Below, in pieces: positions 10,200 through 61,882 of a DNA stretch of 64,000 nt (its first letter is position 1; each line of letters starts with the position of its first letter). The notes beneath the pieces are model-generated. The model did no database searches and was not told the origin of the DNA. It saw nothing but the letters and a program-made list of their open reading frames with translations. Location: NCBI RefSeq assembly GCF_963678975.1, contig NC_089273.1:10106614-10170613 (forward strand), written 5' to 3'. Made by a program: the position numbers and the translations under genes. Source of the DNA: Dysidea avara (lineage: Eukaryota; Porifera; Demospongiae; Dictyoceratida; Dysideidae).

Positions 10200-10204
10200 C
10201 ATTG

Positions 10205-11960: not shown

Positions 11961-12540
11961 GGAAGGCGTAAAGTACAGGGTAAACTCCACAAGCTTCTTA
12001 TTATTTGGAATGATCACGTGCGTATTCCAGGGCTTATAGGGATGTGATATCGGGAGCGTAGTTGAAGCATAGAGTTTTGTGACTTCCTTTACAGGTGACA
12101 ATATGGTTTATTGTGCTGTTGTATAGACGTTTTAGTCGTATTTAACTGCTACGTGGGTTATAGTCTACGGTTTCCGTGACTTTTCGCCGGTTTGTACACA
12201 TGCTTTTACCTTTATGAAAGCCCATGCCAGGCAGTGGAAGGTGATAAAGTTGGAGAGGGGAGGGGTTAGCTCAAAATTATTTGAGAGTTGTAAGGAAGCT
12301 GAGGCTTGTTCATGGTTGCAGTGATTACAGAAGTGGCTGTAAGCATAGCTACTCAGCATGCTCCTTTGTCTTCAGCCCTGCATGCCAGACCCTAGGGTGT
12401 TATTACATTATATCTATAATCCCATGCTATTCACTATACATGCAGTTAAGTAGCTACAAGTCTTATTCCCTTTCTCTATAAGTAGGTGATTATGAAGATG
12501 TAGTGGTTTTGGGACACTGTATTAGTTGATTTACTAGAAA
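11961..12540. repeat. MULE left TIR including an exon relic
   Basis: Similarity to the right arm runs through AAGCTTCTTATTATTTGG, CAGGTGACAATATGG, CTGCTACGTGGGTTATA, CATGCCAGACCCTAGGGTG and TGCTATTCACTATACATGCA. It continues past the right arm's LINE insertion into AGATGTAGTGGTTTTGGGAC, which matches the coding exon at 22755. It therefore carries a decayed copy of that exon and ends at a run of about 27 G. An unrelated piece at about 12195-12370 interrupts the match. Confidence 0.8.
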
Positions 12541-13000: not shown

Positions 13001-13529
13001 TTATAGTACTTCAACATGTTGGTACACTTTTCCTTGCAGCACAGGTCGTACCGTAGGCACTTCTTTACTTTTTAACTCTATTATCATGTCAAAATGAACA
13101 GAAGAGCTATGAGCCAATTGCATATGGGTAAAAATTTTTTCTGAATAATTTTCTTTGGTAGATGTTGCATAACATATCCAATGATAATCTATTTTGCTGG
13201 GTTTTTCTGTCAAAACATACAAATCAGTCCCATAAAAATCAGCAGCAGCTTGTAGTTCAACTTGAGTTGCCCAAGTGCCAGATTTGGCCATATGTTTCAA
13301 GTGACGAGCCATGGAATTATTGAACAAAAGGGTGCTGTACACATCTTGATTTGCAATGATATGAGAGCATAATTTTTTTCGTACATTCATATGATAATCT
13401 TCATCTCCATGTACATACACTGCTACACTTCTAAAAAAGCAGTTTCCATCTGGCAACACATTTTTTATCATCTTTCCTTCTGTTAGCAATTTTCTGGTAA
13501 TATTAGATATGTTTGCTGATGACAAACAT
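13001..13529 (-). CDS. MULE terminal exon: OTU-type cysteine protease domain
   Basis: An acceptor (CCACCCAG) precedes the frame, which then has no ATG, so it is read as an exon. Residues about 20-40 read LPDGNCFFRSVAVYVHG, the OTU Asp-Gly-Asn-Cys motif with the nucleophile Cys. Near residue 145 SSVHFDMII supplies the catalytic His before an aromatic residue. The spacing fits the OTU fold, which in cells removes ubiquitin. It ends VYQHVEVL-stop. The joint to the exon at 13651 does not resolve in phase, so there may be another small exon or a defect. Its role in transposition is unknown. Confidence 0.75.
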
Positions 13530-13650
13530 CTGGGTGGAATTGGATCGTCAGGAAAGTTTCAACATTAAAATTTTTGTGAACATCGAACCAGTATAAACAG
13601 CCTATAAATTTAGTAAATCAAAACAATGTTGAAACTTTATAGTAAAACAC

Positions 13651-13715: not shown

Positions 13716-13767
13716 CTACAGAAAAATAATTTAAATACAGTATGCACATATAGACCTTACAACTTAC

Positions 13768-14016
13768 GAAGATTTTCTATTTTATTTTCAATAGATGCAA
13801 GTGCTTCAATAGCACGTGGTTTACTCTTTTGAATCACGTTCTGTTTTTCATCACTATTGTAAGGGCTTCTGGAGGTAATAAATTTACACCGTCTCTGAAC
13901 ACAACACTTTTTAAGACATTCTGGTCCCCCAAATTTCCTTTTGTCCAGGCAAAAACGGCACTTTCCACAATCAGCTGCTTTACAATTCTGACATTCACCA
14001 CACCGTTTTCTCTTTC
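13768..14016 (-). CDS. MULE exon: CXXC zinc finger
   Basis: The acceptor TTCACAG is followed by KRKRCGECQNCKAADCGKC, then RFCLDKRKFGGPECLKKCC and VQRRC. This matches the CXXC zinc finger of MLL, DNMT1 and TET-type proteins (CGxCxxC, DCGxCxxCxD, KFGG, KxxCxxRxC), which binds unmethylated CpG. A GTAAGT donor ends the exon after IENKIENLR. It lies downstream of the SWIM exon on the same strand, so it probably belongs to the transposase transcript. It may steer insertion toward CpG-rich chromatin, but that is inference. Confidence 0.8.
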
Positions 14017-14139
14017 CTGTGAATTTGTATATTGATACAATTATTATCAAAACAACAATAACAAAATCAATACAGGATAACCTGAGGTATTTTTTGGAAA
14101 TAAACAGGTGACCTTCATGTAATTCGTGCAAATCGGCTA

Positions 14140-14495
14140 TGCTATAGCAAAAATCTTAACTGTTATATTGATTGAAGTAGGGTACCAGTGAAATCCCTAC
14201 TTTGGTATTATGAACCAATGGTGGTTGCATGCCAATGTGGGACTGGCACTGAAGGACAAAACAACTGAGGAAGGCCAGCTATTTAAAGTGATGGACAATC
14301 TTCACAGTTATTTTTTGTGAATATCAAGCAGTCAACCGGAACATCAAATGTCATTGGTGTGAACAATTTAAGACATGATTGTACGATATACAAAAGGGAC
14401 CCTGGGGGTTTACACATTATCACAAAATGGCAACAGCCTCACAATACCTTCATAGCACCTCGGTGGTATTGGTGAGGTAAACCCAATAGTGTATA
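14140..14495. other. Intron-like, no gene
   Basis: It contains a fragment of a palindromic MITE near 14170 (AAGTAGGGTACCAGTGAAAT). Otherwise no features. Confidence 0.45.
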
Positions 14496-14746
14496 TGTGA
14501 CCGGGCCTGCGATAATAGGGCATGTGGGCACATGATTTTTGCCTACTTTTTCACAATTTCATCACACATAACTTTTTGTATCATTATGGTATGGAATTTC
14601 AATTTTCAACTCTTAGTGAGCATTTAATTGGCATCATGATGCAAGTTACAGAATGGAAATATACTTTTCCAGTACTGAGATATTACCTGTAGAGTGATGG
14701 GGTGTAGTTTGTGCCCACATGCCCTGTTTTCGCAGGCCCGGTCACA
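14496..14746. mobile_element. TGTGACCGGGCC MITE, copy 1
   Basis: TGTGACCGGGCCTGCG and its inverse bound a 251-bp element flanked by TA. The TIR extends through AGGGCATGTGGGCAC. A sister copy of the same length is at 53853-54104. Confidence 0.9.
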
Positions 14747-14779
14747 TATGTAGCTACAGATGCAATATAATTTTTAAAA

Positions 14780-23515: not shown

Positions 23516-23889
23516 ATTGTAGTTACTTGACTGCATGTATAGTGAATAGCATAAATAACAATGCCAGTTGGGATAACTAGGTGTACTGTAATACCCACCC
23601 TAGGGTCTGGCATCCTTTGTAGCATGGAATAACTAACCAGGGCAGTAGACTTAGTACAAAAAAGATTGGTTACTCACGAAAACCATATAACCCACGTAGC
23701 AGTTAGGATACCACACAAAAAGGTCTATACAACAGCACAATAAACATTGTCACCTGTAAGGGAAGTCATAAAGCTCTATTCTTCAACCATGCTTCCGATA
23801 TCACATTTCGCGGTCAATTAATCGATACGCACGTGATCGTCCCAAATAATAAGAAGCTTGCGGAGTTTACCCTGTACTTTACGGCCTCC
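23516..23889. repeat. MULE right TIR, outer part
   Basis: Inverse of 11961-12450, about 80-85% alike by eye, ending in CCTGTACTTTACGGCCTCC at 23889. It probably holds the gene's promoter. Confidence 0.8.
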
Positions 23890-23958: not shown

Positions 23959-24343
23959 GCCACTCCAAATAAATTCTCTGTTTCCCGTCCTGGACTCAGG
24001 TCTCAGGCATATTTGCATGTGGGCGGGCGGTCCATTTCCATTATTTCATTCTAAGATTGGCTAGCTTTTCAAGCCATTATTTGCCTGGCACAGCCAAAAA
24101 GGCTGCATAAAAGCATGCTTAAGCTTATTCCTTCCTTTGTAAGTTGCAAAAATAACTCAAACGTGAAGTTTGTGCTGACTTGATAGCACTGCTGACACTG
24201 TTTCAAGATAGCTTTTACTGAGTCTATCAGCATGCAAGAATAACCGGAAAATAATGGAAGAATACGGAATAATGGAGTATTTAGAGCTGGCAGTAGCCAG
24301 ATGCGGGCGGTGGACGGGAAACAGAGAATTTATTTGGAGTGGC
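23959..24343. mobile_element. TIR element, GCCACTCCAAATAAATT
   Basis: GCCACTCCAAATAAATTCTC continuing to TTTCCCGTCC is repeated inverted at 24311-24343, a TIR of about 33 bp with no mismatch seen. GTAA flanks both sides and may be the TSD. No coding content. Superfamily not assigned. Confidence 0.75.
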
Positions 24344-38463: not shown

Positions 38464-38608
38464 CTATAGAGATGTTTCAGCACGTGATTTTCGTTACGTC
38501 ATTTTCCAGAAGTTGCCATATTGGTGAACAGGTTGCTACGGAGGGCGTAGCTTTGGTGTACAGCTATTTTTACTACGTCGACGAAAAGAAATACATCTCT
38601 ACGTACAG

Positions 38609-39217
38609 ATGGTGATTTGCGCAGTATATGGCTGCTCCAAATGCTCAGGAAGAGACAAAAATGTTTCTTTTTATAGGCTACCAGCAGTGAACAAGTACCA
38701 AGGGAGGAAAGACTATGAATTAAGACTGAAGCGTAGAGCAGATTACCTGGCTGCTATTGGAAGGAAGAATATCGCACCCAAATCACTAAAGAACTGGCGT
38801 GTGTGTTCAAGACAATTTTTATCCAGAAAACCAGCAGGGTTATACGACGTAGCTAATCCAGACTGGCTGCCAACGTTACGTCTCGGCAAAGAGCCTACGT
38901 CAGAGAGCACGGCAGTAAGCCAACTTAAGATACAATCTAGTAACGACCGATATAAGAGAGCCAAAGGAAGGAGGGAAAGGCGTAAATGTATTGAAGAACT
39001 TGTGCAAGTCCTGCCAAATGCTTTCGATGGCTTAATGGATGAAGCATGTGAAGAAGAAGTGAAGGATGTAGCTATAGAGCAGATTAGTATTGGAATGCAA
39101 TACATTGATGTGTCAAGAGCTAAAGAACCCACAGTGTGTAAGTGTTCTGCTGAGGTCAAGGTGCTCCAAGAGCAGTTACACCAAGCTAGGCTTACAATCC
39201 AGAGCCTTTTGCAGTAA
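38609..39217 (+). CDS. THAP-domain part of element A transposase
   Basis: 202 residues, starting with ATG a few bases after the TIR. MVICAVYGCSKCSGRD starts a THAP zinc finger (C-x4-C), followed by SFYRLPAV, LKNWRVCSRQF and DWLPTLRLG. The usual CSxHF His is Gln here (CSRQF), which should weaken zinc binding. A coiled-coil-like C-terminus (VKVLQEQLHQARLTIQSLL) ends at a stop. The DDE domain follows after about 80 bp, so in an intact relative this would be one protein. Confidence 0.75.
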   Translation: MVICAVYGCSKCSGRDKNVSFYRLPAVNKYQGRKDYELRLKRRADYLAAIGRKNIAPKSLKNWRVCSRQFLSRKPAGLYDVANPDWLPTLRLGKEPTSESTAVSQLKIQSSNDRYKRAKGRRERRKCIEELVQVLPNAFDGLMDEACEEEVKDVAIEQISIGMQYIDVSRAKEPTVCKCSAEVKVLQEQLHQARLTIQSLLQ

Positions 39218-39807
39218 CTAGGAGAAAACCCACTACCATTCTGTGAGGATGCATTTGTTGATGACGAGTTTACAAAGTATCATACTGGCCTGCCAAATTG
39301 CAAAGTCTTATTGTGTTATTTGAGCATGTTTCAGTTGGTATGTTACATGAAAGAGAGACCAAATTGACACTCTTTCAACAATTTTCATGTGTTTTATTGA
39401 AGCTAAGGACCAATGCAAACATTGAAAACTTATCACATCGCTTTGGTGTCTCGTGTACAACAATTTCAAGGATCTTCAACAAATGGTTACCACATATTGA
39501 TAGACGGTTGCATGGCTTGATACTTTGGCCAGACAGAAAAGCCTTGCAAAAGACAATGCCGCAGTCCTTTCAGCAATCTTTTGGAAAGAAGGTTGCTGTA
39601 ATTTTAGACTGCTTCGAGGTTTACATCGAAAGACCATCCAACCTCCGAGCAAGAGCTAGCACTTGGTCTAATTACAAGCATCACAATACAACAAAGGTAC
39701 TGCTTGGAATTACTCCTCAAGGAGTAATCTGTTTTGTGTCTGAATGTTGGGGTGGGCGTGTAAGTGATGTGCACCTTACAGAGCACTATGGAATTTTGAA
39801 GAAACTG
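39218..39807 (+). pseudogene. Element A DDE transposase, interrupted
   Basis: A short frame with FTKYHTGLPNCKVLL shifts to one reading FSCVLLKLRTNANIENLSHR and FGVSCTTISRIFNKW (HTH). VAVILDCFEVYIERPSN carries the first Asp and GGRVSDVHLTEHYGIL the second: DDE_Tnp_4 of Harbinger/ISL2EU. The 132-bp MITE at 39808 cuts it. LLPGNVVLADRGFD resumes at 39941, then a second insertion follows and the catalytic Glu region is not found. Confidence 0.75.
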
Positions 39808-39939
39808 CACTGTTAAAAATGAAGTGCTATGGTAGCACCTCTAGGTGCTATTTTGTGACTGAAGCAGTCAAAATTTAGCACTGTTAGGTGCTACCATAGC
39901 ATTTTTAGGTGCTATCATAGCATTTCATTTTTAACAGTG
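39808..39939. mobile_element. 132-bp MITE CACTGTTAAAAATGAA
   Basis: CACTGTTAAAAATGAAGTGC and its inverse TTTCATTTTTAACAGTG bound it. Internal AGGTGCTA(T/C)CATAGCA words repeat. It splits the transposase between ILKKL and LPGNVV. Confidence 0.8.
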
Positions 39940-39977
39940 TGCTGCCAGGGAATGTTGTTCTTGCTGATCGTGGTTTT

Positions 39978-40440
39978 GACTAGGGCTGAAACGGATAGCA
40001 ACTTTTACTATCCGGATATCCTGAACAAAACCTATCCGGATATCCTACGGATAGTGACATCATCACTTGCTATAGAAACATTTATAGTTTATTGTAAACA
40101 TCCTTGTTTTACTAGTACTAGAAGCAAACAAACATTAACATGATAGCAAAAGGTTTGTGGTAATGTTACAGTGTTACTTTGCACCGTCTGTAACAAGATT
40201 GGCAGCTGGAGAAAACATGAATACAAGATGTAGCAGTTGCTACAAGACCATTATAGTCGCAAAGTACCATCCCAATTCAGTATGTAACTAAGGAGAAACA
40301 TCAGAATACTCCACTTATTGACCATATTGTACGTGTATGTTGTGAATTAACGAATGTATGTGTTTCTGTAGTACCTTTTGATTAACCTGAAAGTCATTGT
40401 AATGATACTGTAGAGAGAATACTATATTTTACAATTAATA
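39978..40440. mobile_element. Second insertion in the transposase, right end unclear
   Basis: After ADRGFD the sequence changes to TAGGGCTGAAACGGATAGC, with repeated TATCCGGATATCCT. Tips like TAGGGCTGAAACG are hAT-style. No matching right end was found before the nuclease gene starts at 40442, so the transposase 3' end may have been deleted here. Confidence 0.4.
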
Positions 40441-40441
40441 T

Positions 40442-41600
40442 TCAAATTGTAATACTTTGACAGTCTTTGCAATACCACTTTCCAGTTGGAATTGTCTTCA
40501 TTTTAAGGCATTTTGTGTGGAACCACTCAATCTTGCAGTCAGGATTGTCACAGCCTATCATCTCACCTTCACTGGGTTGGTTGCAAAAGCAATACAAATG
40601 ATCCTCATCACTAGACTCAGATTGGCAATCCTCTTCTTTCTGTACTCCACATTCTGGATGTGTGTACCAGTGTCCTAGCAGTTCAGGTAGTATACAGGAT
40701 GAAAAAAATGCAGCTGCATTTTTAAGGCAATTGTCCCACAAACCATTATCTTGGAATATTCTTTCAACGAAGATGTCAGCACTTGTACCAAATGTGCACA
40801 CAACAAAATTACAGTAGCTAACACCACAAATATGCATCTGAGTTTGAATTTGGTAATAGTATGTGTGGTCTCTGCGTAGCTTCAATTTGCCATCATGCTC
40901 CATTAAGCAAAAAGTGCTGTCCTTGGTGACTGCATTCTTGATGGTGTCATCCTTGTGACTGTAAGGGCACTTGAGCTCAATAACCCACTTTCCATGACAA
41001 GTACAGGAAACAACACCATCAGGAGATGCTCCAAGATGAGGCCACTTTGGATTGATGACAAACCCCACATCTGAAAGTTCTAAATTTTCATGACTGGGTC
41101 CAATTTCTTTGCGGTATAATTCCCTGGCACACTTTTCCTTCTTAGTACCCCAGTCAGTTTGTTTGCTGGAAAGGAACAAACATCAGGGTAACAGATTGAC
41201 TTAATGAGGCTTCGTGATGGATTCTCAATTGCTGTGCTGCAGACAGCTTTCATACGTGATGCAGTGACCCTACCACTTCTGTACTTGTACCACAATTTGC
41301 ATTTAGCCTGTGATCTGGTTGCTGCTTCAATAGCAAGGGACATCTCTTCAGTCAAAGTAATGAATACTGCATCACAAGCACTTCTTAGGTCATCAAACTC
41401 AGCATCAATTAAATTTGGATTATAAAATTCAGTAAGTGGTGTTGGAAAGGTGTACGTTAAGGATTTTGGTACATAGTTGTCTGAGTATGGTGGAACAAGA
41501 AACAAAATACCAGGACTGGTTCCACACATACTAAGCTTTGCAAAAAGGAGTTCCATTTCCATTATCTCTTTTTGTATGTCTACTGGGCTATTCACTGAAG
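40442..41600 (-). CDS. Element A YqaJ-like nuclease with C-terminal PHD finger
   Basis: Reading minus: [19 protein letters not shown], then [17 protein letters not shown] (acidic site), LGASPDGVV (Asp), [10 protein letters not shown] (the E-x-K of PD-(D/E)XK) and [19 protein letters not shown]. This is the YqaJ/lambda-exonuclease fold. The C-terminus [20 protein letters not shown]...FHTKCLKM...WYCKDC is a complete PHD finger (C4HC3), a histone-tail reader. One frame change lies near 41130-41170. The protein is thought to process DNA ends for transposition. Confidence 0.8.
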
Positions 41601-41622
41601 CTTTTGCATCTAGTTGGTCTGG

Positions 41623-41957
41623 TTATTTCATGTTGTCAATTGTTTCATCTAATTTCCTCTTTTTGCCTTTGGGTGATGTAAAATCATTATTTTTGATTGG
41701 ATGGTACTCTGCTGATTTTAGAAATGTTGGCATAATCCAATTACATGGACCTTCAGTTGGTGTCTTAATTCTGGTGATCCTGTAGAGTGTCTCTAGGTAA
41801 AACAGAATTGCAGCCACATGTGTACAGGTCTCGCCCAAGCCAGCCATACAAGTACAATGAGCACAGCATATGTCCCCATCTTCCTCCAACACTATCCAGC
41901 TGCTCAAAGGAGTTTCACTCAACTTCTGTGAATGAAGAACCTATAGTATCATAAAGT
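41623..41957 (-). CDS. Element A nuclease, SWIM zinc finger exon
   Basis: After an ACTATAG acceptor: VLHSQKLSETPLSSWIVLEE, then CCAHCTCMAGLGETCTHVA and AILFYLETLYRI. CxC...CxH is a SWIM finger as found just before YqaJ domains in ISL2EU nucleases. It ends in GKKRKLDETIDNMK; the next segment is in another frame. Confidence 0.75.
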
Positions 41958-42009
41958 AAAACGGTCAAGTAGTTAAACTGCTCTATTAAAACAGTAACAA
42001 GAGCAATAT

Positions 42010-42321
42010 TAGGCCTGAGTCAAATATGATGCCCAAAATGCTTTCAGGAATTTCCCATAATTTCACTCATTATGCTGTTTCAGTGTTTGCATTTATGCTT
42101 CTAAGTTAGCAACGTTTGTGACAATTATTATGGAACATTCAAATCAGTGAATGCTCTATTAGAGTATTTCATCATAAAGCGACTGCTCTATTAGGGAGTA
42201 TTGATCTATTTTTAACTCCATAGTTTGAAATATCCACCTAATATAACAGCATTATGCTTGCATAGCACTCCAGCCTACGATCAATGCTTTTTATTATGTT
42301 GGCATATTTGACGCAGGCCTA
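42010..42321. mobile_element. hAT-like MITE TAGGCCTGAGTC in the nuclease intron
   Basis: TAGGCCTGAGTCAAATATG and GCATATTTGACGCAGGCCTA are inverted; flanks AGCAATAT and AGCAATTA are near-identical. It has two inverted motif copies (GCTCTATTAGAGTATTTCAT). It sits between two coding exons. Confidence 0.75.
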
Positions 42322-42429
42322 AGCAATTATTATTACAATAATTTTAAACAAGCCATCAATCGCTAGAATATCTAGTATGATAACAAGATTAACAACATAC
42401 TACATAAATGTACAATATATAAACATACT

Positions 42430-42665
42430 CGGCCGATTGAAAGATATTTTCCAAGCACCTTTCGAGTACGCACATCCTTCACCCAGCCACTGACGAACTG
42501 GTTATAGGCTTCCAGCCCTTTATGTGCCTTAAACTGCTTCATAGTCAAAAAGCTCGTCCTCAAAATGAGGTACGAAGCCAAGTCACACATTTCCACAGGT
42601 GGTACATCGCTAGTGGAAACCCCTAGTTCACCAGAGGAAAACGGGTCCACTCCTCCAATAAGCAA
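42430..42665 (-). CDS. Element A nuclease, N-terminal exon
   Basis: Minus-strand GGVDPFSSGELG, then EMCDLASYLILRTSFLTMKQ and FKAHKGLEAYNQFVSGWVKD. The AYNQFVSGWVKD block is conserved at the front of SWIM-YqaJ proteins. It is spliced over the intron holding the hAT MITE. An overlapping ATG frame (42660-42715) suggests one frame change near the start. Confidence 0.65.
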
Positions 42666-42861
42666 AATTTTAGCTTGATGTCAAACCTTTGCTTCACATG
42701 GCAAGCTGCCGGCATATTTAGACAATATAGACATAGAGACATACTTCGACGTAGCAAAAACAGCTGTACACCAATAGCTACCTCCATAGCAACCTGTTCA
42801 CCAATATGGCAACTTCCGGAAAATGACGTAATGAAAATCACGTGCTGAAACATCTCTATAG

Positions 42862-48208: not shown

Positions 48209-48480
48209 ATGCCACGTCGGAGTGCCTGTATCCGTGCACGACAGGCTGCTGTATCTGCGGATGAATTTCCCTCGATTGATACTAGCGATTCTGAGTCTGG
48301 TGACATTTGGTGTTGCTGTGGTGGTCGAGATGATGGTCGACTCATGCTACTTTGTGATCAGCAAAGTGAAGGATGTAGTATATGGTATCACTATGATTGT
48401 TTAGGGTTGTCGTCGTCTGATGGTCAGTGACTGGGTGCTTCTCATGAGAACTTTATTTGTCCTTTTTGTATGGAAAACTC
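48209..48480 (+). pseudogene. PHD finger of the reverse transcriptase element
   Basis: WCCCGGRDDGRLMLLCDQQS, then IWYHYDCLGL and FICPFC give the C4-H-C3 pattern of a PHD finger. The start MPRRSACIRARQAAVS follows an apparent leader. PHD fingers read histone H3 tails, so this may direct insertion to certain chromatin; that is inference. Confidence 0.75.
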
Positions 48481-51360
48481 TACCCCTCCACGTTCCAATC
48501 TGGATACTATTGGTCAGGACTCTTTTTTGTTCAGGATTCAACTGATCAATTTAAGCCGTGTACTGACTTCCTGTGGAATAATATTGTTACTGGTGAACAA
48601 GTCTGTGACTTTTTGATATCTGCATATGATGAGGTCGTTCATTGGGGACCAAATGTTTTTCTCATACCATATGGAAAAGCAGGCAAGCACTTTATTAAGG
48701 AACTTGCTAGACTATATCAAGCTTTTGCTGAGGACACAGCTCTAAGCTCTATTGCCTTGATGGCCTGTTCAGTGTTGCAGCCCTTGCTGTTACAAAAGCC
48801 ATACAAACAAAGTAAAGCTAAGGATCATTCTGCCCACCTTCTTCGCAGATTGGAATTGTGGAACCAAGGTTCCTTTGATGCTCTGATTAAAGAGGGTCGC
48901 TGTATACAGGATCATCTAAAGCGTGGACTGTCATCTAGGAATGAACCTAAAGATCCTTCACGCTTGTTTGATCATTTGATGTCTGAGGGAAAAGTGAGTA
49001 TGGCACTACGCCTTCTCTCTGAGAAATCTAAGGGTGGTGTGTTGTCACTGGATTCATCAATTCCCTCTGGTTTTGATTCCTCAGGCAAACAACTTTTTCG
49101 TACTGTTAGAGAAATTTTGATGGAGAAACATCCAGCTGCTATTCCAGCCAGCCCATCAATATTACTTGATTCGTCTAGTGAAACTCAGCATTATGACCCC
49201 ATCATTTTTGATTTTATAACTGGTGATCTAATCAAGAAAGCTTCTCTTAATACTCATGGAGCAGCTGGTCCATCTGGTGTTGATGCCTATGCATGGCGAC
49301 GTATGTGTACATCTTTTGGCGAGGCCTCTGTTGGACTATGTGAAGCCCTGGCTTCTGTTGCTCGTCGCCTATGCACTGCTCACCTTGTGCCTTCGGTTTT
49401 AATGCCCTTCCAGTCCTGTAGACTAATTCCATTGGATAAGTGTCCAGGTGTCCGTCCAATTGGCATTGGGGATGTGCCCCGTCGGATTGTGTCAAAGGCA
49501 GTCCTCTATGCCATTGGTGATGATATTGTATCGGCTGCTGGCCCCCTGCAGACTTGTGCTTGTCATGAGGCAGGTTCTGAAGCAGCAGTTCATGCAATGA
49601 AGGAATTGTTTGGGGCTGCCACAAGTGAAGCTGCTCTTCTTGTTGATGCTACTAATGCATTTAACTGTGTCAATCGTTAAGCTGCACTTCACAATATTTC
49701 CAAGATTTGTCCATCATTTTCTACCATCCTGCAGAATACTTATCATGCCCCAGTCCGTCTTTTTGTTGTTGGTGAAGGTGAAATTTCATCTACTGAGCGC
49801 ACAACGCAAGGTGACCCCCTTGCAATGGGCATGTATGCACTGGCTATGGTTCCTTTGATTCGTCGTTTACGTACTGAAGTGCCTGATGTATCTCAGGTTT
49901 GGTTTGCTGATGATGCCAGTGCTGTTGGTTCACTCTCTTCACTGCTGACTTGATGGCGGCAACTTTCATCTTATGGCCCAGCCTATGGCTATTTTACAAA
50001 TGCTGTTAAAACTATTCTAATTGTCAAGCCAGAACACCTCACTCGAGCACAAAAGCTTTTTGCTGATACCAACATTCAGATAACTGCTCGTGGCCAAAGA
50101 CATCTTGGTGCTGTGCTGGGATCAAGAGAATTCGCAGAAGAATATGTGGCTGACAAAGTGCAGTCCTGGGTCTCTGAGGTTTCTGCCTTGGCTGGGATTG
50201 CAAACAGTCATCCACATGCTGCTTATAGTGCCTTCACTCATGGATTGATTGGACGATGGGTTTATTTGATGAGAACAGTCCCGGATATAAGCTCTTATTT
50301 AAAACCACTAGAGGATGCCATACGATTGCAACTTCTTCCTTCTATTTCTGGACACCCTGGTTGCTCTGCTGATGAATGGGACCTGCTCTCCCTTCCTTGC
50401 CGTTTTGGTGGTTTAGGGCTTATAAATCCCACGAAGGTTTCTGATTCTCAGTTTGATGCATCACTACTGATTACTGCCTCCCTGAAAGATCTGATTATCA
50501 AGCAGACAGTTTGTGCTTGGCCCCCTGATGTTCGTTCTGTAAAGGCCCAGGTTCATCTTAATCGGCGAAGAACTTCCAAAGAACTCGCAATGCATGTAAG
50601 AGATCATCTTTCTTCCCAACTTCAAAGGGCGGTTGATTTCAACAGTGAACCCGGTGCATCTTCCTGGTTACTGGCCCTGCCATTACAGGAGCAGGGCTTC
50701 CATATTAACAAACAAGAGTTCTGGGATGCTGTCCATCTGCACTACGGATGGAAGTTACTGAATGTTCCCAGTCACTGTGTCTGTGGGGCTTCTTTTACTA
50801 TCGACCATGCCATGGTCTGTCAACATGGGGGCTTAACCTTTGTGCGACACAATGACTTGCGTGACATCACGGCAGGTTTATTGTCAAGGGTGTGTTCAGA
50901 TGTTGCTACTGAGCCTCCCTTACAGCCCCTCAGTGGTGAAGTAATCACTCCCAAGTCTGCGAACCGACAGGATGATGCCAGGTGCCAGGGCAGATATTCA
51001 TGCACGTGGTTTCTGGGGACGGCGACAAAGTGCCTTTCTTGACGTAAGGGTGTTTCACCCAAATGCACCAAGTTACCGTAACTCCAGCATACCATCTGTA
51101 TATCGCTGTCATGAATTACAGAAGAAGCGAGAGTATGGCGAACGTGTCCGGGAGGTGGAACAGGCTTCCTTTACCCCTTTAGTTTTTTCCACAACCGGTG
51201 GAATGGGAGGAGAAGCACTAACATTCTATCGTCGTCTGGCCGACATGCTTTCTCGCCACAGCTCAACATCTTATAGTGGCACTCTGGCGTGGATTCGCTG
51301 CACACTGTCTTTTTCATTGCTTCGTTCTGCTACAATGTGCATTCGGGAAACATGATCCAT
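48481..51360 (+). pseudogene. Reverse transcriptase and C-terminal nuclease region
   Basis: GPSGVDAYAWRRMC, GVRPIGIGDVPRRIVSKA and ALLVDATNAFNCVNR (first Asp), TTQGDPLAMGMYALAM and VWFADDASA (Asp pair) are reverse transcriptase blocks. The tail has HCVCGASFTIDHAMVC (C-x-C...H...C), then RADIHARGFWGRRQSAFLDV, resembling an endonuclease core, and FTPLVFSTTGGMGGEA. Family-level recall only; breaks are several and are not itemised. Confidence 0.7.
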
Positions 51361-52895: not shown

Positions 52896-53852
52896 AGTTT
52901 CCCACCATTTTAGATAGATTTTTCACCAGTGTTGCAGTATCACGTGTCCAGGGTACTGAGTGTGGGGGTGGCAGGGTGGGTAAGAGATAGGCTAAAAAAT
53001 AGACAAGGATGGTAATTGAAGGCACTAGACCACAAAGCAGCCTATCAGAGGCAGGAATAGACTAAAATCTCACAAAACAGACATACATCACACATTCTGC
53101 TCCCTGGTCGTCTGTTCAGAGTGTATATATGAACCCCCAAAAGCACTTTCCTGTTGTTCACAAACCTGTACAGACATCTGGCATGGTTATACAGGCCACC
53201 AGAAAACAGTCTACCAAAAGCAGACCTGACAAGTTAAAGGAGAGTTTGATATGGAAATTGTTAGCCAGATAGTGCAGCAACTTCATGCTGGTGTTATCTC
53301 ATTTTTGGCTCTTACACCCATATGGTTGATTTTGATATATCTAGTCACATATTGTGGCAGCACTAATGTCATGCACATCAAGATATGCTAATAGAGCAGT
53401 CAAAAGTTACCTCAATAATGTAGGCTCTATTTAGTTTTGTTTATCACCACACATCATAAGGTGAAGGGTTTTGACTGTCATTTGCAGTGATGTTGAGTCA
53501 CATCAATTAATTCTTAGATTGATCTCTTTTGAATGTCCGCCTGCTAAGTACATGTGTCCCTTTGTGTTAATGGTCATTGTGTTCAATTTTTCATGCAGTT
53601 CTCATGACCGGTGGAAACACTGTAATGGCAACTGTACTATAATTTAAGCCAAATAAATGTTATTTTCTTTCCCAGCTACTCTCTGATAGTGTGAAACAAT
53701 AAATTGTACTGACAACATATTGGTGATTGTTTTATTAGGAATAAGTACATTGTGTGAACTTTGTGATTGTCATTTTCACAATGCTGTGGATAGGGTATCT
53801 CTGATGTCCAGTCAATTACAATGTTCACACTTCTCTTGTTTGCTTCATCATA
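52896..53852. other. No gene seen
   Basis: One motif copy at about 53384 (GCTAATAGAGCAGTCA). No coding support. Confidence 0.4.
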
Positions 53853-54104
53853 TGTGACTGGGCCTGCGAAAATAGGGCATGTGGGCACGTGATTTTTGCC
53901 TACCTTTTCAAACTTTCATCTTTCATAACGTTTTGTACCATTATGCTATGGAAATGCAATTTTAAGTTCTTAGAAAGCATTTAATTGGCTTTATGATGCC
54001 AAGTTACAGAATGCAAATATTCTGTTCCAGTACTGAGATATGACCTGTAGAGTGATGGGATGTAGTTTGTGCCCACATGCCCTGTTTTTGCAGGCCCGGT
54101 CACA
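53853..54104. mobile_element. TGTGACCGGGCC MITE, copy 2
   Basis: TGTGACTGGGCCTGCGAAAA and CAGGCCCGGTCACA flanked by TA; 252 bp and about 90% like 14496-14746. Confidence 0.9.
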
Positions 54105-54439
54105 TATCCGGACTGGTAGCATTCTTTCATTCATGACTTTCTTTGTGTTTCTTCACATGATGCGTCAAGCAAATATGTAATACTATGTAAACAGAGTTAG
54201 TGAGTGAACCTTGTACTAAGCTAGATAACTTGATAAATGTCTAAGTGAGTACAGTTTGGCAATATGTGGTGCATTATACTTTTAACTAATTGGCAAAATT
54301 TTACTGACTACTTGCATATATACATATACATGTACACTGTCCCTACTCTACAGTATAGTTTAAAATTCCTTCATAAGCAAGAATTTTTTTTTTTTTTTGC
54401 AAAATAATTATTTATTGTTACACTTGTGACTATCACTAT

Positions 54440-54770
54440 TCAATGTGTTGGTCATGCACTGCTGTACATGCCCCATTTGTAGATTGCCCCATTGGTGATT
54501 GTATTTGGTTGTATGTGCGCCTAGTAGTAATAATAATAATAATAATGAAGATGGGTATTGGTACGGAGGTCCCGTGCAAAGAGTCCCAATACGTATGGTG
54601 GACGGGCCCGTGTTGGTATTTTTGTTGGTCGCTCGTCAAAGCATTGTCGATATTATGTGACCCTATTTTGGAAAACCATACTTTTGGGCATACGCAAAAT
54701 TTGTGGGAATTCTCAATTGAAAATTTCAGTGATTTTTTTAAATTAATTATTTGCGTATTCTGATAAAACA
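54440..54770. repeat. Dispersed repeat fragment
   Basis: TTGGTTGTATGTGCGCCTAG and a TAA microsatellite resemble the R1 end. TGACCCTATTTTGGAAAACC with ATAC recurs inverted near 61170-61195. Open frames on both strands are by-products of the inverted structure. Confidence 0.5.
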
Positions 54771-55130
54771 ACTATTAAGCTTTCTTACTGTGAAATTTCA
54801 CACCCATAGCTTCTTTTATCTAGGAGATATACTGAATTATATCAGATCATGTAGTAGTATCACAATGCGTGGGACAATTAACTTACAAATTGGGTGATTT
54901 GTTCATTCCCAAAACCAAACATTTTCTTGTCTTTAGACAATAATACAAGTGATTCAATTGAGAAAAAGCACAAAGAACACGTGATTAAGCTCTCAAGGAT
55001 CTCTTTTCATTAATTTTAGATTATAAGAATGGTGGTCTTTAGCAACAAAGTGATTTGTCATCAATTTGTCACATCTGATCACTATACAGTTCTATAAACT
55101 GATAATGAAAAGTTAGTTTGTAATGTATAA
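54771..55130. other. No gene seen
   Basis: AT-rich flank of element B. Confidence 0.4.
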
Positions 55131-55360
55131 GCCAAATCCCAAATGACATCACGAAATGCAAATGGACGTTCCATTTGGGGGACTTTAATATTTTCGCAGA
55201 ATGGTTTGTATGGCGAGTCCAATGTGATTGTCCTTGATAGCTGAATAGAATCGATTCACTGCTAAGGTAAGCAAAAAGGATGTTTTCGTACTTGTTTCCG
55301 AATATAGCGATACCACTTTTTGCCGATTCTGATTAATTTTTGCTGTTTTCTACAGAGGCT
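55131..55360 (+). promoter_or_regulatory. Element B left TIR with leader intron
   Basis: The TIR holds CTGCTAAG/GTAAGC (donor) and TTTTCTACAG/AG (acceptor) about 90 bp apart. The same pair is in the right TIR (GTAAGC; TCTTCACAG/AG). Start codons of both genes lie just inside: ATG 55386 here and ATG near 60071 on the other strand. So each TIR seems to supply promoter, leader exon and intron to its own gene. Confidence 0.65.
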
Positions 55361-55385
55361 TGACGTGCTGGGCCGACTCTAGCGA

Positions 55386-56592
55386 TGGTATCACTCGTGA
55401 CATCCGGAGATGGTGGAGCTAAGGGGGGTGTTGGTAATGATTTTGATGGGATCAATATGTTATCGATGCAGATGGAGGAATAAACTGCCTACAAAAGCTG
55501 ACATCAAGTAATAGGCCTGGCTTGCAATCACATAAGCTCCTTCAGTGTATGCCTGCTAAGGAGGATCCAGATTGGACCACCAAGCTCAATCATTTGCCAA
55601 CTATCACTTTTGGTACAATATATGACTTCCTTGTTAGTCGTAAAGTTTTCTTGAAGAGAGTCAGGGACATTGAAATCATTGTAGATGACCAAGAGGACAA
55701 TTTATTGAGTAAAGAAAGCAGTTCTGATGAATCCTGGTATGAGTCAGTCGAGTACACCCGTGCTTTAGATAAAGCGTATCGTTTTTTCAAGGATGGTCAT
55801 GTCCAGGATATAAAGTATCATCCCTGGATAAGCCAAACAGATTTTATATGCATATCAACCAAGGTTTTACCATCTATGAGAAAAGATCGGATATACAATG
55901 TCACAGTCATTATTCAAGAGTCAAATGCCCGTGTTGTTATAGCTTACTGTACTTACCCAGCTGGATTGGCAGGATGTTGTAATCATGTAACTGCTACATT
56001 GTATTGTCTTGAAGATTATGTAGGGTTGGGTTTAAGAGAAGAGGAAGAACTTGGTTGTACTAGCAGATTGCAGACCTGGAATCAGCCCAGAAAACGTAAT
56101 GTTGAGCCGCATCCAACAGATGATGTTACACTACATAAGGATATGTATGGGAAGAAGAAAAGGTGTAAGCTGCAACATGTTAATAAGTGGGACTGTCGTC
56201 CAAGCTCAAGGAAGATCATTGATCCAGATAAGGCACGTACTCTGAGGGAAAGTTTATGTATCATAGAGCAAAACAAGATCATTGCCGCAAATTTTGCTAT
56301 CAACACTGCCAGTACTGAGAGAGAGAGGGAACAAGCACTTGCAAAAGAATCTATGATGACTAACTATGGTACATCATGCTTTTTACAGATCTTGGATGAT
56401 GACCCTGTCCCACTGGACAACAGGAAAGATAAAATGCGGAAGGAAAGAATTGCATGGGCAGAATTGAAGAAGCAGTTGTTTATGCAGCAACTTTCTGCTA
56501 ACCAATCATCTGTTAAGCACGATCATAATTATATCAATAATAGTCATTCCCCTATACCGCCACAGGAATTTTTGCTGGTGAGACAAAAGTAA
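55386..56592 (+). CDS. Element B nuclease, N-terminal and SWIM region
   Basis: ATG at 55386 opens MVSLVTSGDGGAKGGVGNDF, but that frame soon stops. The main frame runs from about 55500: LNHLPTITFGTIYDFLVSRK, SWISQ-like region, ARVVIAYCTYPAGLAGCCNH and VTATLYCLEDYVG. The SWIM pattern CxC...CxH here has Tyr at the second Cys (CTY), so zinc binding may be lost. It is followed by a basic linker and a coiled-coil-like region (residues 240-340). The frame continues after a stop at 56592 into the YqaJ part. Confidence 0.7.
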
Positions 56593-56594
56593 AT

Positions 56595-57266
56595 GTGCAG
56601 CAAAAGTTATTAGATGACCTCTATACCCATCATGTAAGCATCAGTGCTACTGCAATACGGGAACTAGAGTCATCCACACGAGGACAACATCAATCAGACA
56701 GGTGGCACCATGAACGCAAACTTCGTGTGACTGCTTCTGGAATGAAGGAAATTTGTCATCAGAGACCAACTACTACATGTACGTCCTTTGCCAAGAGGAA
56801 ATTCTCATTGCAGTCAATCAATACACTGGCAATTAATTATGGAAAAAACATGAAACTGTTGCAATTTCTAGTTACGTAAAACATCAAAGAGCTAAAGGAA
56901 AAATAGTGAAGGTAGAATCATGTGGTCTTTTTGTTGACCATTCTATGCCTTGGCTTGCAGCAAGCCCAGATGGGATTGTAACTGACTTAAGTGAAAGAAA
57001 TAAAGTGTCCTTATGTTTGTGAGAGACAAACCATAGATGATGCCTGTAAGACTGTGAATGGGTTTTGCTTAACGGAATGAAAAGGACAAGTGATGTTATC
57101 AAAATTGCATGCTTACGTTTTTCAAATACAAACTCAAATGCATGTTACAGGGCTTAAATGGTGCGATTTCTTTGTTTGGTCACCAATGGGAGAACCCTTC
57201 ATTCAGAGAATTGAGTATGAACCAGCCTTTATGGACCAAGTACTGTTTAAAGCACGCGATTTCAAT
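56595..57266 (+). pseudogene. Element B YqaJ nuclease domain, shifted frames
   Basis: RWHHERKLRVTASGMKEICH opens the fold. LAASPDGIVTDL (Asp), EIKCPYVCE (E-x-K) and YVFQIQTQMHVTGLKWCDFF complete it across frames changed by two small indels near 56845 and 56995. It is clearly the same PD-(D/E)XK family as element A's nuclease. Confidence 0.7.
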
Positions 57267-57310
57267 CAGCCTTTATGGACCAAGTACTGTTTAAAGCACG
57301 CGATTTCAAT
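57223..57310 (+). repeat. 44-bp tandem duplication inside the nuclease gene
   Basis: CAGCCTTTATGGACCAAGTA through GCGATTTCAAT occurs twice in direct succession, identical except at the junction. 44 is not a multiple of three, so the duplication itself shifts the frame between the YqaJ and OTU parts. Confidence 0.9.
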
Positions 57311-58399
57311 AAGCTTTTACCAACTGCTGTGCCTCACATGATAATATCTCCATCGGATTGTACCATTAGTTTTCCTGGACCAATCATGAATGAACAGTGC
57401 TCTTTTATAGATTCTGTATCCAGAGTAATAGTGCGAGAGAATTTCATGGAAACTAAAGTAAAGAAGTGTGACCCTATTGATCAGCAAGAAGGCAGTGAAA
57501 GACAGCAAGGCACGCAGAACAAGAATCCACCTTGTTCAGACAGGCAAGATCGTAGTGTGAAAGTGAAATCTTTGGAGAAGTTTGACCCTAATGGCAGCAA
57601 CAATGAACAAGAAACTAGTGAAGGAATCCAAGCTGAGGAGAGTCTTTGTTTAGAGTCTTTAGTCAGGAAAGACAAAAATATGCAAGCACTCAATTTGGAC
57701 ACACACCATGTCAGCAAGCTACAAGCTGGTGTAGAAAAGCCTGGTCACATCTCCACCAAGAAACAACAATGTTCTGATCAAAAAGCAATCATCAAGACAG
57801 ACCATACGCAGATTTCCCATGACCAAGAAACTTCTGATGTGCAGTTAGTGACAGCATATGCCAAGCCATCAAAGTATAGAACTATACAAAGTATTTTAAA
57901 ACATTTGCAGCTAAAGAGGCATACAGTTAAGGGTGACGGCAGTTGTCTTTACCATGCAATTGCACACCAGGCAGGACTAATTGCAAGCTCCTCTACTGGT
58001 GATGAGGTGGTGAGTAACCATCTCAGGCAACTCACCCTTTTGGCAATGCTGAATTACCCTGCTATTCAGCTAGAGTGCTCATTGTCTGACCAAGACTGGC
58101 AGGCAAAACGACTGCAAGTGTTGACCACCTGTGAGTGGGGTGGTGATATTGAACTTCGGTTAATGGCGGTTGGCCTTAAGAGAGACATTATAGTGGTCAC
58201 TGACTCTAATCTTGGAAATGTGTTTGCACGTAAAGTTCCACACCAACCACCAACAGTTCCTAAAATGAAGGGAGGAATTTTTATTCCAGTAACATCTGAT
58301 GAACCCTGTACCAGTGACCAATCAACACAGATACAGAATTGTTTTATTATTGTGTACAATGGCAGTAACCATTATAACTCAACTTTACGTATTTTGTAA
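57275..58399 (+). CDS. Element B OTU protease domain region
   Basis: 374 codons. The first 35 residues continue the nuclease; about 36-200 is a polar Gln/Lys/Ser linker. From about 205: VKGDGSCLYHAIAHQAG (OTU Asp and Cys), WGGDIELRLMAVGLKRDIIV, then CFIIVYNGSNHYNS with the catalytic His. All three catalytic positions are kept. It ends at a TAA 148 bp from the opposing transposase stop. Element A has a PHD finger at this C-terminal position instead. Confidence 0.85.
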   Translation: MDQVLFKARDFNKLLPTAVPHMIISPSDCTISFPGPIMNEQCSFIDSVSRVIVRENFMETKVKKCDPIDQQEGSERQQGTQNKNPPCSDRQDRSVKVKSLEKFDPNGSNNEQETSEGIQAEESLCLESLVRKDKNMQALNLDTHHVSKLQAGVEKPGHISTKKQQCSDQKAIIKTDHTQISHDQETSDVQLVTAYAKPSKYRTIQSILKHLQLKRHTVKGDGSCLYHAIAHQAGLIASSSTGDEVVSNHLRQLTLLAMLNYPAIQLECSLSDQDWQAKRLQVLTTCEWGGDIELRLMAVGLKRDIIVVTDSNLGNVFARKVPHQPPTVPKMKGGIFIPVTSDEPCTSDQSTQIQNCFIIVYNGSNHYNSTLRIL

Positions 58400-58547
58400 A
58401 AATATATTCATCTTTGTGCATGTATAGTATTTTAAAACATCTATACCACATTAATTTTATTATGTACTTTAGTTAACAAACAAGTGGTGGACTGAAGTTA
58501 CAAAGCATGGCACACACATACACAAGTTCATTTACAGAGTCTCACAT

Positions 58548-59600
58548 TCAGGCTGGAATGGTTGGTTGAAAAATCCGGAATTCTTTTATACGGCCTATGG
58601 CTCTCTCAACATGAATTCTCAACCGGGCAATCTTCTTTGTACGTAAAACATTATCGCTTGAAAATTGAGTTCCTGAATTTAAAAATGGAGGAATGTTTAA
58701 CTTTACTCCTAATGGTGCAAGTAAGTCTTGTATATCAAAGCCTTTGTCGGCCATGATCTCATCACCAACTTCAAGTAAGTCTAATAACTTGCTGCGTTCG
58801 ACTAACTTTTTATCTGATATTGATCCTTCATATGTAGGAGATACAAATACAATTGCCCCACTTGGAATGATTCCTATCAGGACCTTCACTGTATTCTTAT
58901 TCTTATATGCCGAAAATGTGGCAGCTTGGGAAACTAGTGATGATGGGCGCTCCATACCAAATTCTGTAACATCGATTATCAGCCTAGTATTTGGATACTG
59001 CTCCTTAAAAGCTTCTGGCATATACTTTTTAACTATATGCCAGGGTGGATAACGCTCCAAGCTTTTCAAACTGTGAAACAGCAGGTTAATCCACGTAGCA
59101 GTGATTCTAGAAACAGATGATTGAGATATTCCAAACCTGTTTGCTATGTCGAATTCAAAAAGACCCAAACAGAGCCTAACCAGCGTTAGAAAGAGCTGCT
59201 CTAGCAAGGGAAGTTTGTGGCTTCTCCCAGTCTTTTCTTCAGCATAAGTATCCTTCGATTTGCCACTCCTCCATTGGCGCATAACCTTTGCATCAGACTC
59301 TAAAATATTTTTATAGAAGTAGAAAAGAGTGTCGTAGTCTGGAAAGCTGGTATACAGGTTGATTTGATAATTCTCATCCTTGATATTTTCCAAGCGAAAC
59401 AAAGATTTTTCGTGCTTAGTTTGTAATTCTGCCAGCTGAAGTGACATTTCCGCTACTTTTCCCTGTAAAAATTCAATTAAATCACCCCCAGAAAACCTTT
59501 CATCTTCTATCCCAATGTCTAGAGTTTTTTCCACATCTTCAGTTGACACAAGTTCCATGCAATACTGTTGGCTAGTCTCCGTTAGTTGAGTAAAATCTGT
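58548..59600 (-). CDS. Element B DDE transposase (Harbinger/ISL2EU type)
   Basis: About 336 residues read minus. A coiled-coil-like start (LIEFLQGKVAEMSLQLAELQ) and a Y-x-G-F-like region lead to LFLTLVRLCLGLFEFDIANR and FGISQSSVSRITATW (HTH). The catalytic core follows: TRLIIDVTEFGMERPSS (first Asp), TYEGSISDKKLVERS (second Asp), IMADKGFDIQDLL, and ARLRIHVERAIGRIK with the Glu. All DDE residues are present and no break is seen. It joins upstream to the THAP part. Confidence 0.85.
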   Translation of the reverse strand, partial: TDFTQLTETSQQYCMELVSTEDVEKTLDIGIEDERFSGGDLIEFLQGKVAEMSLQLAELQTKHEKSLFRLENIKDENYQINLYTSFPDYDTLFYFYKNILESDAKVMRQWRSGKSKDTYAEEKTGRSHKLPLLEQLFLTLVRLCLGLFEFDIANRFGISQSSVSRITATWINLLFHSLKSLERYPPWHIVKKYMPEAFKEQYPNTRLIIDVTEFGMERPSSLVSQAATFSAYKNKNTVKVLIGIIPSGAIVFVSPTYEGSISDKKLVERSKLLDLLEVGDEIMADKGFDIQDLLAPLGVKLNIPPFLNSGTQFSSDNVLRTKKIARLRIHVERAIGRIKEFRIFQPTIPA

Positions 59601-60085
59601 TTTGTTAGAATTCTGTGTTGTACATTTGAATATATACTTTGTCGCTGTTCCATGGAAACAAAGATGGGACAGCTGTTTTCTTCAATACACGTCTGGCAGC
59701 TTGGGGATCTTTACCACTATAGTCATCAGCAGTGAAATGTTCTGAACATACTTTTGTGTTCCTATTGATGACAAAATTGGTAACAGGATCTCGTCAAATA
59801 TTTGAAATCCAGCGCTGTGCCCTTGCCTTTTCTGTAACAATACTTGGGAAAGAATGAAATGAGATACGAGGTAATCCAAAACGTGCTCTTTCTGTGTTTT
59901 CAGCAGATGAATGGTGGCACAAAGGCACACAGCAATACTGACCCCGCCACAATTCATCACTACACGACTTTCTTGAACTGCCTTTGTCAGTTTGCGATGA
60001 AATAGCTGAAGTACTCGCAAGTAATTCGTCGATATCTCCCTCAATTCTGCCGTCTCCGCCAGATGCCATTGCATGGTCTCTGTGA
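59601..60085 (-). CDS. Element B transposase THAP-domain part
   Basis: ATG near 60071 follows the TIR acceptor; MASGGDGRIEGDIDELLAST leads to QYCCVPLCHHSSAENTERA, FHSFPS, RWISNI, then CSEHFTADDY and AVPSLFPWN. This is a THAP zinc finger with its C2CH ligands (C-x4-C, C-x2-H) intact, binding the TIRs. One TGA stands after RWISNI where CGA (Arg) is expected, a CpG-type change. A second frame change lies between FPWN and the DDE part. Confidence 0.75.
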
Positions 60086-60311
60086 AGAACCAGCAAAAAT
60101 TAAGCAGAATTGGCAAAAAGTAGCATCGCTATATTCGGAAACAAGTACCAAAACATCTTTTTTGCTTACCTTAGCAGTGGATCGATTCTATTCAGCTATC
60201 AAGGACAATCACATTGGACTCGCCATACAAACCATTCTGCGAAAATATTAGTCTTAGAGTCCCCCAAATAGAGCGTCCATTTGCATTTCGTGACATCATT
60301 TGGGATTTGGC
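60085..60311 (-). promoter_or_regulatory. Element B right TIR with leader intron
   Basis: Inverse of 55131-55360: the donor CTAAG/GTAAGC and acceptor CTTCACAG are preserved. It drives the transposase on the minus strand. Confidence 0.65.
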
Positions 60312-61882
60312 TGATTAGACAGTAAATTGGCCATATCTTTGGAATGCTTCAACGTATCATCGCAAATTTTTCACACAACATATGGAAACAATTTTGTGAC
60401 ATCAGTGAATGTTCTATTAGAGTATGTAAATACAGTCTTCATGGATTTCATTGATATACATAACACATTCAGAATGTTTGTGTGTATAGACACTTAGTAA
60501 AGTGCTATATACATCATGATGACCAATGAATTTGCTTTAATAATGAATAACATTTAAGAAACCAAATATGTCATACCTGTCTCATTGAGTGGTATGAATA
60601 TACTTAACAGTTGTAAGGATTTCATTACCTGAATAAGTAAGTAGCTGACTACTAAAGAAGGCAATACAGAGCAACTGACTTTAAGTACAATTGTTTCTGA
60701 TATACAATAACAATTATTTTGAAGTTATCTAATAAAGCAGTCGGCCAGGTTTGGATTTAACTTGTTTACAGTAAACAGTGATCACTTGAAAGAAAATTGA
60801 AGGTTTTGCCTTGAAGACAATTATTATGTGTACTGTATGAGCTAATGAATTCCCTTCAATAATGAATCATGTTAAAGAAAGTTAATGCGACATAGAAAAG
60901 GCGTACTGTTGCATATTGCCATATGAATATAATTTGCACTTGTAGGGATTTCATTGGTTAGATAGGCAACTGATCAACATCTGAAGATGTTTGTATACAT
61001 CAATCATCTCTCAGTATGGCTATCTCTGTTATATGATAGAAAGATTTTCAAACACTCTAATAAAGCAGTCTGTTATTTTTTTGTATTGTGCATTCTTCCA
61101 TATGAGGTAGATAACCACTCAGTGCTTCATTGTAGCTATAATAAAGAAAATTGGCCAATGGTCCCAAATGTATGGTTTTCCAAAATAGGGTCACATATAT
61201 TGGCGGTACTCGTTTTATGCTTGGACGGGTACTGTTCATTAACACGTTTTTTCCTGATTGTACCTATTGTGGTTTTAACATATTAAATTCATTACAAATA
61301 TAATTGTAGAAATTATTTAATTAAGGTAGCCACAGATTTGTAGGAAAGTAAAAAGCACAGTAGTATAGTAGCCGATATATGGTTGAAATAAGCTTACTAT
61401 AGTCTGATAATACACCACACTACACTAGTGATTTAACCTCTAATATATGATTGTCTTAAATGTATTCACTAAGCTTGTTATAGTAAAGTCCTAATCTAAT
61501 AGTATATGCTGTGTTATTTCATTCCAATACTAACATAATAAGACTGTTATAGGTTATAATTCTGAGCTTTTTTCAGTGTGGGGATTGTTTTTCTACACAG
61601 TACATTTGAACTGCATGAAAAGATGCCTCAAATATTCCTAACCTATATGTCTCAGTGTTTATTTTAGCACCTTAGGTTACTTTATTCATCCACAAAAGTG
61701 GTTATTTAGTTTAAAATGGTATCACTACAACCAGTGAAACCCACAATCACTTCTTTTTTGTGCCCACAATTTAAACCCACAATCAATGTTTGCAAACCTC
61801 TGTATAAAAGTAATGTATATAGTGATTGCTGATCTGTCTTCCTTCACCTATTAGGTGAGTATACCAGAGTGGTATATATTAC
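60312..61882. other. No gene; scattered repeats
   Basis: Three weakly similar blocks near 60450, 60560 and 60860 share words such as GATTTCATT and AATGAAT. Motif copies at 60412, 60728 and 61055. A repeat shared with 54660 lies at about 61170. No coding support. Confidence 0.4.

Follow-up and report, generated by a model that had tools for sequence, protein, structure and literature searches.

In a window of 64,000 nucleotides from the sponge Dysidea avara, the whole stretch of DNA analysed here, we identified a decayed ISL2EU-like transposon, element B, whose accessory gene most likely encodes a YqaJ-type nuclease with an OTU cysteine protease domain at its C-terminus, together with a related element, element A, whose homologous nuclease has an ING-type PHD finger as its tail. 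Because element A holds the PHD finger where element B holds the OTU domain, the tail looks like an interchangeable module through which the nuclease is linked to host chromatin or ubiquitin signalling.

Organisation of element B

Element B occupies approximately positions 55127-60315 and consists of two inverted arms, 90.3% identical over 238 columns (55127-55357 versus 60315-60078 on the other strand), that enclose two convergent genes (Table 1). The minus-strand gene encodes a transposase in which Pfam recognises THAP, HTH_Tnp_4 and DDE_Tnp_4 domains; a preliminary description made from the letters alone had called the element Harbinger-like. One TGA codon interrupts the THAP region, and a search of NCBIfam with this transposase returned three rows, all below cut-off, two of which were IS5 transposases. 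The accessory gene is located on the plus strand, from approximately 55.4 kb to 58399, and reads towards the transposase gene. Its parts follow in the order of a SWIM-like N-terminal part, a YqaJ-type nuclease, a linker of approximately 180 aa and an OTU domain. The OTU stops approximately 1.7 kb inward of the right arm, with the convergent transposase gene ending approximately 150 bp further on.

Table 1. Coordinates of the features of elements A and B and of the zinc finger and OTU domain of the MULE (positions within the window; Pfam E-values are given with PF accessions).
Feature	Coordinates	Strand	Details
Element B, left inverted arm	55127..55357	+	outermost well-matched bases AGCCAAATCCC
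Element B, N-terminal part of accessory gene	55447..56592	+	381-aa open frame, degenerate SWIM-like motif C-T-Y...C-x-H
Element B, YqaJ / lambda-exonuclease-type region	56541..57263	+	frame changes and a stop; aligned to element A
Element B, two tandem 44-bp units	57220..57307	+	98% identical; end of nuclease region; nuclease and OTU frames diverge here in this copy
Element B, linker (~180 aa)	57308..57850	+	uninterrupted frame; family searches give nothing above cut-off
Element B, OTU domain and stop codon	57851..58399	+	Asp 57935, Cys 57944, His 58370
Element B, transposase, HTH_Tnp_4 and DDE_Tnp_4 part	58548..59681	-	PF13613 E=1.9e-16, PF13359 E=1.3e-37
Element B, transposase, THAP domain	59662..60063	-	PF05485 E=2.2e-17, TGA read as X
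Element B, right inverted arm	60078..60315	-	pairs with left arm
Element A, two-gene element	38464..42861		related to element B, same layout
Element A, transposase (THAP, HTH_Tnp_4, first part of DDE_Tnp_4)	38528..39816	+	4.6e-7, 5.5e-14, 3.3e-23
Element A, YqaJ region in two overlapping frames, with C-terminal tail	40442..41622	-	PF09588 E=3.5e-15, PF00628 E=1.3e-5
Element A, ING-type PHD finger at nuclease C-terminus	40442..40618	-	PHO23 1.1e-19, ING4 1.4e-19; C4-H-C3
MULE, OTU domain	13001..13558	-	PF02338 E=3.2e-12; OTUD5 9.9e-11
MULE, CXXC zinc finger	13757-14155	-	PF02008 2.4e-10; closest solved KMT2B 1.1e-10

A further inverted pair of 35 bp (54654-54688 / 61163-61197, 97%), beginning TATGTGACCC, surrounds element B and was considered as its true ends. 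We prefer the inner arms for two reasons. As judged by eye, they adjoin both coding starts, which is also the case in element A, and the window contains 15 occurrences of TATGTGAC, spread over both strands. Given the latter, element B probably lies within or next to a different element that has TATGTGAC-type ends. Two short elements with inverted repeats, whose ends resemble ATATGTGACYGGGCCTGCGA, are located at 14493-14749 and 53850-54107.

The accessory gene had been described as encoding a SWIM-YqaJ nuclease fused to an OTU protease, with a start at 55522. This position falls within a plus-strand open frame whose beginning is at 55447. The 381-aa frame matches none of the Pfam families at E<=1, SWIM included, and inspection by eye reveals a Tyr in place of the second Cys of CxC...CxH. 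The pieces of the nuclease region, when searched singly, fall below the Pfam cut-off (Viral_alk_exo 6e-4, YqaJ 0.08); read through, the region is 33% identical to the element A nuclease, and the motifs A-S-P-D-G, E-x-K-C-P-Y and Q-I-Q-T-Q-M are common to both. The YqaJ half of the label is sustained by the alignment to element A, whereas the SWIM half has the support of the motif but not of Pfam. This copy of element B, the single one known, is decayed, as evident from the frame changes and stop in the nuclease, the TGA in the THAP region and the loss of the SWIM-like Cys.

The OTU tail and its relationship to the nuclease

Towards its end, the accessory gene matches the Pfam OTU profile PF02338, with E=3.5e-8 in the 382-aa open reading frame 57251-58399 and E=1.2e-8 when the 182-aa tail is searched alone (36.0 bits versus a cut-off of 23.3, profile positions 1-90 of 128). 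The D-G-S-C and N-H-Y motifs reported earlier are indeed present and supply the Asp, Cys and His codons given in Table 1. With a profile match and all three of these residues, the tail qualifies, on sequence grounds, as an OTU cysteine protease domain. Its closest solved relative is OTU1, a weak match (0.0085), and the alignment with the OTU1 structure 3by4 comprises D-x-S-C, plus the His region in a second, low-scoring stretch. No match was found for the OTU open reading frame at E<=0.1 in NCBIfam, which is a prokaryote-oriented library.

AlphaFold models of this domain had a mean pLDDT of 31.1 when predicted from the single sequence and 42.9 when the MULE OTU was supplied as a second row, neither being usable by itself. 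A Foldseek search with the second model gave 119 matches, and 49 of the 50 rows listed were OTU domains or ubiquitin proteases, the remaining row being an aspartokinase. With this poor model no row reached E<=0.001 (best E 2.1e-3), and TM-scores were all <0.35 among the matches listed, with 0.27 by query for the row of best E. Since the MULE OTU row helped to shape the model, we take these matches as a weak structural hint rather than as proof of the fold.

The OTU domain most likely formed the C-terminus of the nuclease protein, rather than being a neighbouring gene, because a frame of 382 codons is open from the second of the tandem 44-bp units onward, through the last part of the nuclease, then the linker and finally the OTU, and because the peptide FMDQVLFKARDF is read in both the nuclease and OTU frames, once per unit. 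Frame continuity inside the arms, together with a duplication that explains the out-of-frame joint, supports the nuclease-OTU fusion initially proposed. In linker and OTU alike, the codon-position GC and purine pattern matches that of the frames for the SWIM part and the DDE domain and differs from that of the two flanks. Codon-usage scores favour the right frame for the OTU (19.2; next 13.0) and barely for the linker (22.3; next 20.1), a test that discriminates poorly because the linker margin is small and the right flank outside element B scores up to 19.4 over 250 codons. Uneven decay was also considered as a sign of selection on the OTU, and a rough estimate was not convincing.

An alternative is that this particular copy received an OTU fragment from elsewhere, either a host gene or a different transposon, in which case the family would lack the OTU. 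Donors exist, given the OTU-bearing MULE in the same window, and such a one-off fusion is also consistent with a linker that has no family match above cut-off and with the fact that a single copy of element B is known. We nevertheless consider it unlikely, since the 382 codons of uninterrupted frame, from the nuclease end to the OTU, compare with a maximum of 214 and a median of 112 for the longest frames in 500 first-order Markov simulations of element B, and no repeat pair that could mark the OTU as a nested insert frames this part among the repeats listed (20 of 36 direct families and 25 of 47 inverted pairs). Moreover, the active-site residues are intact, and element A has a different functional domain at the equivalent position.

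Searches for other copies were negative in the collections covered. Neither the OTU tail (0 of 7 pattern hits) nor the transposase (0 of 6) of element B was confirmed in viral contigs, and an alignment of the two YqaJ regions gave 0 of 79 confirmed hits in viral contigs and 0 of 71 in prokaryote genome contigs. A tblastn search of phages with the OTU tail found none at E<=0.1. A DNA pattern for the terminal arms was absent from viral contigs and matched once in prokaryote genome contigs, in a Verrucomicrobiae contig that we rejected as a relative: the match is attributed to chance because only 20-21 arm bases and one 16-base stretch are shared (BLAST E<=1). No Rfam family matched at the gathering threshold in the whole window.

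Element A and the MULE in the same window

The arms of element A (38464-38581 / 42746-42861) are 92.4% identical over 119 columns. A foldback of approximately 132 bp (39808-39939) splits the DDE domain of its transposase, and by eye the DDE reading seems to resume past the foldback (VLADRGFD). The accessory gene displays a full CxC...CxH SWIM-like pattern by eye, which scores 14.9 bits with the Pfam SWIM family, below the cut-off of 19.6 (E=0.02); the top Pfam row over this region is DUF5941 (0.0034), also below cut-off. The nuclease itself matches YqaJ in Pfam (Table 1), and a lambda-exonuclease-family model in NCBIfam fell below cut-off (33.6 bits versus 68.05).

The homologous nuclease of element A was previously said to end in a PHD finger, which the PF00628 and ING4 matches corroborate, and the broader claim of different tails on homologous nucleases holds accordingly, with OTU in element B and PHD in element A. 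From its C4-H-C3 pattern and closest similarity, this finger is classed with the ING family: in a comparison with solved structures, all 20 matches at E<=1e-5 (20 of 20) are named ING1-5, PHO23, YNG1, YNG2 or png2, the last four being yeast members of the ING family. The assignment goes beyond that of a plain PHD finger because ING PHD fingers are readers of H3K4me3, and the cage residues of ING2 (Y, M, D, W) also occur in the element A sequence.

The MULE is bounded by inverted arms that include 11961-12025 / 23825-23889 (92%), among others, and its domains lie on the minus strand, each in a separate open frame. They comprise a ZSWIM1/3-type RNase H domain (2.3e-14), a SWIM domain (6e-7) and a FAR1-like region that is below the curated Pfam cut-off (E=0.00099). 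Between the SWIM and OTU frames is a CXXC zinc finger, a domain that typically binds unmethylated CpG. The closest solved relatives of the MULE OTU are OTUD5 (9.9e-11) and OTUD1 (1.7e-9). A perfect 32-bp inverted repeat (23959-23990 / 24312-24343, 321 bp apart) is situated close to the MULE, immediately beyond its right arm, and elsewhere in the window long open frames at 10051-11541 and 48448-51042 resemble reverse transcriptases by eye.

The presence of OTU domains in two unrelated DNA-transposon groups of one window, a further point of the preliminary description, is confirmed by the PF02338 matches in both. BLASTP aligned the element B and MULE domains over the active-site motif (E=0.08) and one short unrelated stretch (0.12) only. 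Since the alignment is restricted to the motif region and the nearest solved relatives differ (OTU1 versus OTUD5/OTUD1), the two domains look separately acquired, and the comparison fits separate recruitment.

Comparison with known transposons

ISL2EU elements are described as having two genes, encoding a DDE + HTH + THAP transposase and a YqaJ nuclease protein, with an autonomous consensus that averages about 4840 bp and inverted repeats of 6-259 bp (PMC4482050, PMC9179366). Elements A and B resemble them in two-gene content and similar length, with arms within the 6-259 bp range; THAP, HTH and DDE domains are found in both transposases, and the YqaJ assignment is provided by PF09588 in element A and by the alignment to element A in element B. 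The 2-bp AT duplication of ISL2EU (A|AT|T) was not found at the arm ends of either element, each of which is represented by one old copy with uncertain ends. Nor do the arms start with GG, as element A begins CTATAGAG and element B begins AGCCAAAT or nearby, a start that the source describes as usual rather than universal. Because the target duplication and GG ends are not seen, we label both elements ISL2EU-like (Harbinger-like / PHIS group) and do not file them as ISL2EU. They differ from ISL2EU in the OTU and ING-type PHD tails of their nucleases: neither domain is mentioned on the ISL2EU nuclease in the main texts of PMC4482050 and PMC9179366. We likewise found no report of either on an ISL2EU YqaJ protein among the open-licence papers listed.

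The transposases of RAG-like (RAGL) transposons belong to a superfamily other than that of elements A and B, and RAG2L is a kelch protein and not a nuclease. In RAGL transposons, inverted repeats enclose a transposase gene and an accessory gene that converge, and the accessory protein has a PHD finger at its end (PMC7204232), a layout and a tail like those of element A. In Ginger1 all but one of the tabulated families end in OTU or Ulp1, one also having a PHD finger, and the authors propose a role for ubiquitin in transposition (PMC2836005). The C-terminal domain of Ginger1 (OTU, Ulp1 or Ulp1 + PHD) thus varies by family, which parallels elements A and B, but it is attached to a Gypsy-integrase-like transposase, whereas the tails of elements A and B are on a separate nuclease.

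Transposon-encoded deubiquitinase domains, with OTU beside or instead of VTD, are likewise found in Helitrons and Helentrons, which differ from element B in being rolling-circle elements. Helentrons contain OTU genes in which all required residues are conserved (PMC4067079). The VTD deubiquitinases of Helitrons are active in vitro and react with ubiquitin probes; it has been suggested that they shield transposition proteins from the proteasome, and the same paper describes transposon OTUs as unassayed as of 2022 (PMC9741609). Among MULEs, a table lists the cnidarian element MuDR-6_HM with an OTU (PMC6446971), as in the MULE of the present window; MULEs differ from element B in their unrelated transposase, and the window MULE differs in the nearest solved relatives of its OTU. 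What appears new here, as far as the open-licence papers listed show, is the occurrence of OTU and PHD tails on ISL2EU-like nucleases; the general pattern has been published and the protective role proposed before.

Proposed role of the nuclease tails

In the reading that we favour, the THAP + HTH + DDE transposase would bind the element ends, cut and join DNA, and the YqaJ-type nuclease would trim or repair the ends. The accessory gene product would be a single protein composed of nuclease, long linker and C-terminal OTU cysteine protease, such that the nuclease could carry the OTU, a putative deubiquitinase, to the transposition complex. There, its most likely substrates would be the transposase, the nuclease or cut-site repair proteins, from which it would strip ubiquitin; degradation would be delayed, the complex would persist and the break could be repaired in favour of the element. 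In element A, the PHD finger may instead tether the complex to H3K4me3 chromatin. For this reading in full, namely a decayed ISL2EU-like element with a nuclease-linker-OTU protein and a deubiquitinase role at the transposition complex, we see about an even chance of being correct. Our confidence is higher in the anatomy alone, that is, in the gene content and order, the position and motifs of the OTU and the type of the PHD finger, than in an OTU that would be active, act on the proposed targets and be present throughout the family.

A broader version of this proposal treats the YqaJ nuclease as a platform whose tail alternates between an ING-type PHD reader and an OTU eraser, both of which would hold the complex at accessible, damaged chromatin, with the OTU perhaps deubiquitinating histones or repair factors and not the transposase only. 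We regard this extension as quite unlikely. The chances are slimmer still for two other roles. The OTU might act as a processing protease, with substrates among the products of the element itself or other proteins of the host, instead of removing ubiquitin, as the nuclease-OTU protein is long and viral deubiquitinases are said often to double in polyprotein processing (PMC9741609); neither a cleavage site nor a polyprotein layout is visible by eye, however, and the nearest solved domain, albeit by a weak match, is the ubiquitin thioesterase OTU1. An equally low ranking applies to a catalytically idle OTU serving as a ubiquitin- or protein-binding reader module, for which the reader-type domain at the equivalent position of element A is a precedent, but the active-site Asp, Cys and His, which pure binding would not need, are kept.

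Returning to the favoured reading, a deubiquitinase role for the OTU tail at the transposition complex, its wider relevance depends on whether such tails recur. If OTU and PHD tails are found on other ISL2EU-like nucleases, these elements would constitute another unrelated transposon group with ubiquitin-pathway domains, beside Ginger1, Helitrons and MULEs, which would indicate that ubiquitin is a general obstacle in transposition. Since it would contain one accessory protein in both a PHD and an OTU form, such a group would permit the two to be compared and tested.
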